Below are positions 26,927 through 27,865 of a stretch of DNA of 43,302 nucleotides, one piece after another. The notes under the pieces were generated by a model that saw nothing but the letters and a program-made list of their open reading frames with translations, made no database searches and was not told the DNA's origin. A program made the position numbers and the translations under genes. The number at the start of each line of letters is the position of its first letter. The stretch's first letter is position 1. The stretch is from Hyphomicrobiaceae bacterium (lineage in GTDB: Bacteria > Pseudomonadota > Alphaproteobacteria > Rhizobiales > Hyphomicrobiaceae), in NCBI GenBank assembly GCA_025359165.1, contig JANYHG010000069.1, forward strand, positions 1 to 43,302. Direction: 5' to 3'.

Positions 26927-27865
26927 TCAGGGCAAAAATCCCTTTTTCAGGTCCATGGTCTGTTTGAGGCGCTCGCGGCCTTTGGCGTCTGTCACAGCCA
27001 GCGTCCAGGTGACGTTGGTGCCTTCGCCGTAGGAGGTGGTCGAGCGGATGCGTGCCGACAGCGTTTCGCCGCGCGCAATGTCGAACGGTTCGGCGATTGG
27101 CAGATATAGCTGCTCCCAATGCGTGCGCGGATCTTCGGGACCGGTGCCGAGCGTGATGCCGTCGACCAGGTCCGCCGACCACCAGATCGCCAGACCCGTG
27201 ATGTGCGCCTTGGCTTTCGGTTCCCATGTGGCTTGGCCGAGGCGCGTCGTTTTGGTCGGCTTGGCAAGATCGACGGCGTCCCATTGTTGCGTCGCGCGGC
27301 CGTTGTCGAGCAGGTCCGACGGCTGCAGCCATCGCACATAGATGTTGTTAAGGCCCATCTCCTTGGCGGCGTCGAAATTCAGCTCGTAGCCGACGTCGTC
27401 CCAGGCGGCGAGATGCTTGTGCAAGGAGGGACTGACGACCGGGCAGACAAATTGCCGGACCTTGCCTGGAATGAGCACGCCACCGGGCTCAAGATAGCGG
27501 TCGCGGGCGTCGCCGAGCGTTTCGATCAAGTTCTCTTCGAACGCGTAGTTGCCGAGCGTTTCGGACACTGCGATGTCGAAGCGTTCGGGCGGATCGAGTT
27601 CGGTCGAGTGGGCGGGGACAACCTCGATATTGCGGAAGCCATTCGCTTTCATGAGCCGCTTGGCGAGCGAAGCGATCTCGGCGGTTTCGATCAGCACGAC
27701 GCGCTTGGCACCGAGTTTGGCCGCCATGAAGCCGAGAAAGCCGGTGCCGCAGCCGATATCGACGACCTTGGATTTGCCCGGCACCACGACGCGCTTCAGC
27801 GCTTCGTGGAAGGCTTCGTTGCGCACCCGGTCGGAAAGCAGGGTGCGGTGATATTCGATGCGCAT
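26927..27865 (-). CDS. PRMT-like SAM-dependent methyltransferase
   Basis: 312 residues, close to the length of the catalytic core of eukaryotic protein arginine methyltransferases (PRMTs). In order: EYHRTLLSDRVRNEAF (like the PRMT opening helix), the SAM loop VVDIGCGTGFLGFMAAKLGA (34-53), and the acidic IE at about 59-60. Next is the double-E loop SETLGNYAFEEN with Glu102 and Glu111 spaced as in PRMT1, and the THW motif at 248-250 (RTHWEQLYLPI). Together these are the diagnostic PRMT set, so arginine methylation of a protein is a good hypothesis. Bacterial relatives are usually just called class I methyltransferases. The reading frame stays open far upstream, antisense to yicC, but homology begins at the ATG 27865. 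Confidence 0.85.
   Translation of the reverse strand: MRIEYHRTLLSDRVRNEAFHEALKRVVVPGKSKVVDIGCGTGFLGFMAAKLGAKRVVLIETAEIASLAKRLMKANGFRNIEVVPAHSTELDPPERFDIAVSETLGNYAFEENLIETLGDARDRYLEPGGVLIPGKVRQFVCPVVSPSLHKHLAAWDDVGYELNFDAAKEMGLNNIYVRWLQPSDLLDNGRATQQWDAVDLAKPTKTTRLGQATWEPKAKAHITGLAIWWSADLVDGITLGTGPEDPRTHWEQLYLPIAEPFDIARGETLSARIRSTTSYGEGTNVTWTLAVTDAKGRERLKQTMDLKKGFLP

Follow-up and report, generated by a model that had tools for sequence, protein, structure and literature searches.

Protein arginine methylation is usually regarded as a eukaryotic system, the arginine-glycine-rich tails of proteins being the usual targets of the protein arginine methyltransferases (PRMTs); an example in eukaryotes is uS5/RPS2, on whose RGG tail PRMT3 acts. 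In type I PRMTs, helix X with its YFxxY motif closes the SAM pocket and touches the second glutamate of the active site together with the THW loop (PMC8623767), YFxxY being the type I motif and PLxxN the type II motif (PMC12925635). A full-text literature search for bacterial PRMTs, with most subscription journals outside its reach, returned no paper on point. The protein described here is encoded in a stretch of 43,302 nucleotides from a Hyphomicrobiaceae bacterium (contig JANYHG010000069.1; hereafter the window). It belongs to a bacterial PRMT lineage that is conserved among Hyphomicrobiaceae and has a shorter N-terminus than eukaryotic type I enzymes, and it is probably a SAM-dependent protein arginine N-methyltransferase.

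Comparison with the described PRMT classes

The eukaryotic type I enzymes (PRMT1, PRMT2, PRMT3, CARM1/PRMT4, PRMT6, and PRMT8) share with the window protein the core of Rossmann domain and β-barrel, motif I, the post-I glutamate, the nine-residue spacing of the double-E loop, the D51-H293 pair, the THW loop, and an arm-like insert, with a Z score of about 28 over the whole model. Unlike them, the window protein is devoid of YFxxY and the N-terminal half of helix X, beginning just past the position of PRMT1 Y39, and carries several substitutions relative to PRMT1, namely M48 to L9, W145 to T103, Y148 to N106, and M155 to L113. Its double-E loop, SETLGNYAFEEN, is set against a type I consensus of SExMGxxLxxExM, which it matches only in part, and the wording of this loop is nearer to PRMT5 (SELLGSFADNE, compared with SETLGNYAFEE in the window protein) than to type I.

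PRMT5, a type II enzyme, likewise has no type I YFxxY, and the Pfam PRMT5_C model matches the window protein over its cut-off (E = 8.8e-8). In contrast to PRMT5, whose THW loop is altered and contains an insert, the window protein has a THW loop of the type I form; it has L9 at the product-specificity site where PRMT5 has Phe, and its 312 residues include neither an N-terminal TIM barrel nor any added domain. PRMT7, PRMT9, and the bacterial proteins that combine tetratricopeptide repeats with a PRMT domain (TPR-PRMT proteins) have the PRMT core, the double-E loop, and the HW of the THW loop in common with the window protein, but the latter lacks both the WHFxMLND-type start of these proteins and the tetratricopeptide repeats of the bacterial ones. 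Another bacterial relative, L052, possesses a similar double-E loop (SETIGSFAVDEN) and a THWKQ sequence, and differs in its longer N-terminus and a SEC-C-like C-terminal tail, CPCGSG...KKCC.

The gene and the start of the protein

The gene occupies 27865 to 26927 on the minus strand and comprises 312 codons, with ATG at 27865 and TGA at 26927-26929; the plus-strand reading of 26927-27865 is interrupted by a stop. As the protein starts beyond the expected position of YFxxY, the possibility of a mis-called start that hides the motif upstream was considered and ruled out, given that the upstream frames are unconserved and many of them stop within a few codons. An ATG is found at the matching position in 45 of 46 orthologous reading frames, the single exception being due to the way in which a Spirochaete frame was cut, and an in-frame stop lies no more than 25 codons upstream of the start in 28 of the 46. 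The shared ATG and the upstream stops together indicate that the short N-terminus is real. Residues 2-16, RIEYHRTLLSDRVRN (27818..27862, minus strand), make up the C-terminal part of helix X and include H6, L9, D12, and R15, with no YFxxY upstream.

Predicted fold and active site

The Pfam PRMT_C model matches the protein with E = 9.8e-11 and 42 bits against a cut-off of 27. All 60 of the matches listed in a phmmer search of the PDB are PRMTs, the best being PRMT6 (E = 1.4e-28, residues 3-274). An AlphaFold2 model built from 12 sequences reached a pLDDT of 83 and a pTM of 0.82, the middle of the barrel insert being modelled with lower confidence. When the model was used in Foldseek and VIA searches, only PRMTs appeared among the 50 matches listed: PRMT6 was the best Foldseek match (E 1.2e-26), and VIA aligned PRMT2 with model residues 1-307 (Z 28.7, rmsd 3.4, 303 aligned), PRMT1 (Z 28.4, rmsd 3.4, 300 aligned), and CARM1, the last likewise end to end at a Z of about 28. 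PRMT1 enters the VIA alignment at chain residue 41, opposite model residue 2. The β-barrel or oligomerisation subdomain (Pfam PRMT_C residues 139-276; 27038..27451, minus strand) includes a helical insert at about residues 154-190 that resembles a dimerisation arm; it aligns with the arm of PRMT1, is of similar length, and is helical in the monomer model, with a middling pLDDT of about 66-74 at residues 151-180. On the basis of sequence and the predicted model, the window gene encodes a full-length PRMT catalytic core and not a generic methyltransferase.

The active-site correspondence was read from an alignment in which PRMT1, CARM1, and PRMT5 were verified letter by letter against PDB chains and PRMT6 and TbPRMT7 were taken from search alignments. 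PRMT1 residues H45, D51, R54, E100, E144, E153, and T292-H293-W294 correspond to H6, D12, R15, E60, E102, E111, and T248-H249-W250 of the window protein. Motif I, the SAM-binding loop VDIGCGTG, occupies residues 35-42 (27740..27763, minus strand) and is recognised by its sequence, its alignment to PRMTs, and its conservation in orthologues. It is followed by the post-I acidic residue E60, which is also conserved, by the double-E loop SETLGNYAFEENL at residues 101-113 (27527..27565, minus strand), and by the THW loop, THWEQ, at residues 248-252 (27110..27124, minus strand). The first-pass annotation had claimed a double-E spacing as in PRMT1 and a THW triplet at 248-250; E102 and E111 do lie nine apart and align with E144 and E153, the triplet aligns with PRMT1 292-294, and the coordinates of this minus-strand gene and the residue numbers given for the SAM loop, Glu102, Glu111, and THW were exact. 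The absence of YFxxY and of the N-terminal half of helix X, and the replacement of PRMT1 M48, Y148, and M155 by Leu, Asn, and Leu, are points that it did not contain.

Across 38 distinct orthologues (43-89% identity), E102, E111, H249, W250, E251, and Q252 are conserved in every sequence, as are D12, R15, G38, G40, and G42, and T248 is conserved in 97%. Such conservation, 97-100% at the key residues against a mean column identity of 66% in a 12-sequence alignment, is not a matter of chance.

From these sequence correspondences, we infer catalysis, SAM binding, guanidinium binding, dimerisation, and the use of a protein as the substrate. By homology, SAM would be held in the Rossmann domain by motif I, E60, and R15, while E102 and E111 would hold the guanidinium group of the substrate, and the D12-H249 pair and W250 would complete the pocket beside the β-barrel. 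The putative dimerisation arm may allow the formation of a ring dimer, and methyl transfer would be expected to yield omega-N-methylarginine, be it the mono-, the asymmetric dimethyl, or the symmetric dimethyl form.

Phylogenetic placement

Two trees were built with eukaryotic PRMT1, 4, 5, 6, 7, and 9 and the bacterial relatives. In both, the group of the window protein forms one clade with a support of 100/100, which lies outside eukaryotic PRMT1/4/6, PRMT5, and PRMT7/9 and is not nested among eukaryotic sequences; the branch of PRMT5 is too long for its placement to be trusted. A position among small-molecule or ribosomal methyltransferases, the outcome that would have counted against the original reading, was not seen. 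The orthologues from Spirochaetota (L023 and L095) are sister to the Hyphomicrobiaceae clade, a position that suggests a transfer between phyla.

The bacterial TPR-PRMT proteins fall together with PRMT7 and PRMT9 in one clade, supported at 99/90 and 100/100 in the two trees. TPR repeats ahead of a PRMT domain whose start is of the WHFxMLND type were seen in L009, L011, L053, L055, L058-L060, L064-L067, L074, and others, from Alphaproteobacteria and other bacteria. A single clade of eukaryotic type I and 7/9 PRMTs was rejected (AU p = 0.0018, five sequences). Type I and the window's clade as one clade was not rejected (AU p = 0.14), although the two stand apart in both trees. L052 and the degenerate group of L063, L069, and L071 form a weakly supported sister branch to the window's clade (81/53). 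The latter three represent a PRMT-like bacterial clade in which the double-E and THW residues are replaced, and judging from these replacements they could possibly be a non-catalytic or differently acting branch.

Distribution and genomic setting

The gene is present as one copy in its own genome and was found in 92 of 103 Hyphomicrobiaceae genomes (71 of the 76 of high quality) and in 19 of 25 genera, with Hyphomicrobium zavarzinii ATCC 27496 among the carriers. In a sample of 199 genomes of the order, the orthologue was confined to the seven Hyphomicrobiaceae, with distant relatives in four other genomes. Outside the family, orthologues were encountered within the samples searched only in Spirochaetota, where two of 247 genomes (G1014 and G1162) carry clear ones with 43% and 40% identity and the same short start. 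The phages searched gave no homologue. The earlier description of such proteins as rare in bacteria holds insofar as they are uncommon, but they are not exceptional: a PRMT_C search gave matches in 12 of 398 Pseudomonadota, and the A1 profile gave matches in 51 of 385 Alphaproteobacteria, the strong one being in the window's own genome, while the other 50 genomes encode distantly related PRMT-like proteins, many of which carry TPR repeats.

Between closely related pairs, dN ranges from 0.07 to 0.22 and dS from 0.86 to 1.8, and the resulting dN/dS of about 0.07-0.25 indicates that the gene is under purifying selection. No neighbouring gene was shared around orthologues of different genera; YicC, Gmk, and other neighbours are shared only with a same-genus locus of 89% identity, and the inference of an operon or partner from the neighbours was accordingly dropped. 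The near-universal single copy and the lack of conserved neighbours between genera mark the PRMT as a stand-alone core gene of Hyphomicrobiaceae.

Alternative functions

An enzyme of PRMT fold could methylate a small guanidino compound, such as free arginine, agmatine, or a metabolite, in place of proteins. The mouth of the active site would be built differently with a short helix X and no YFxxY, and the genomic context ties no substrate protein to the gene, both of which would suit such an activity; against this, the barrel, the THW loop, and the arm-like insert, parts that serve peptide binding or dimerisation in PRMTs, have all been kept, and a gene that is present almost universally, in single copy, and next to unlinked neighbours is more in keeping with a housekeeping function than with a biosynthetic cluster. 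This function is therefore considered unlikely.

Less likely still is a PRMT-fold protein methyltransferase directed at another side chain, or a binder of low activity in the manner of a prozyme. The changes to T103, N106, and L113 near the glutamates and the missing YFxxY may be cited in its favour, but D12, R15, E102, E111, H249, and W250 are all invariant. This invariance is informative because truly degenerate bacterial relatives lose their catalytic residues: in L063, D and Y stand at the positions of E144 and E153, and IRR takes the place of THW, while the window protein keeps both glutamates and THW.

A ribosomal protein L11 methyltransferase of the PrmA type can scarcely be credited, since the Pfam PrmA match (3.1e-8) extends over residues 22-106, the Rossmann part, and no further, the barrel is covered by PRMT_C, the listed PDB matches are all PRMTs, and no listed NCBIfam model comes near its cut-off (prmA, 25.5 bits against 183; PRK00517, 32 against 188), even though four of 14 distant plasmid-borne PRMT-like homologues bear the L11 methyltransferase name. 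The label on these plasmid records (NZ_CP124617, NZ_CP082345, NC_017966, and NZ_CP066077, given as 50S ribosomal protein L11 methyltransferase) is likely a misannotation. The preferred reading thus remains that of a PRMT: the PRMT-like character first proposed is borne out by Pfam, PDB matches, predicted fold, active-site conservation, and the tree, and arginine methylation, initially put forward as plausible, would be expected by homology. Points that weigh against this reading are the missing YFxxY helix, the changes of W145 and Y148 in the double-E loop and of M48 and M155, the lack of a conserved neighbour that would hint at a substrate, and the bS6 tails, whose RGG content does not track the PRMT gene within the family.

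Candidate substrates

The tail of a DEAD-box helicase in the window had been put forward as a possible substrate. It contains 67 Arg and 40 Gly in 330 residues and two RGG, compared with 1.0 in shuffled sequences (P 0.25), and the helicase gene was not found in the flanks of eleven orthologous loci, some of them short; the proposal was thus not sustained.

A search of the same genome with a repeated-RGG DNA pattern, which misses mixed codons, gave one match, in frame in the ribosomal protein bS6 (Pfam Ribosomal_S6, 1.1e-30). This bS6 (L100, C216:894-1289 and on) has the tail ERGGFGDRGDRGGRGGGGGFRGGGDRGPRG..., and tails of the RGGFRGGDRGG type occur in bS6 of many other Hyphomicrobiaceae, the GAR/RGG-tailed examples being L100, L102, L104, L105, L108, L111, L113-L116, L120-L123, and L127-L130. 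RGG-rich C-terminal tails were also seen in some Hyphomicrobiaceae genera on uS3 (L106:730-1581, L125:1438-2388) and on PNPase (L101:1-1551, L118:1-1695).

Among 220 bS6 tails, the 88 from PRMT-positive Hyphomicrobiaceae contained 3.86 RGG on average and the 123 from other members of the order 0.77, and shuffled tails gave 1.42 and 0.37, respectively, so that the observed values exceed those due to composition; the P values of this contrast mean little, as one clade is compared with others. The nine Hyphomicrobiaceae without the PRMT gene, several of them represented by incomplete genomes, had a mean of 3.0, and the comparison of carriers and non-carriers within the family gave p 0.28 for RGG and 0.04 for RGGF, uncorrected and with relatedness ignored. 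No such bS6 tail was found in the two Spirochaetota carriers. Co-occurrence as proof of a bS6 substrate was consequently rejected: family members without the PRMT gene often keep their RGG tails, and the Spirochaetota carriers have none.

The GAR tail of bS6 is retained as a lead, that is, as a candidate PRMT substrate, and the substrates at large may be sought among the arginine-glycine-rich tails of RNA-binding proteins, bS6 above all. A native arginine-methylation system of Hyphomicrobiaceae, in which the shortened PRMT would methylate the GAR tails of bS6, and in some genera those of uS3 and PNPase, as a counterpart of PRMT3, is a tentative and rather doubtful proposal.

Significance

The lineage of the window protein dispenses with the YFxxY helix, which in type I enzymes has been counted among the elements of the active site. 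The interleaving of bacterial lineages with the eukaryotic PRMT classes in the tree bears on the origins of PRMTs. With a single-copy PRMT across a whole bacterial family that includes cultured Hyphomicrobium strains, bacterial arginine methylation becomes directly testable.
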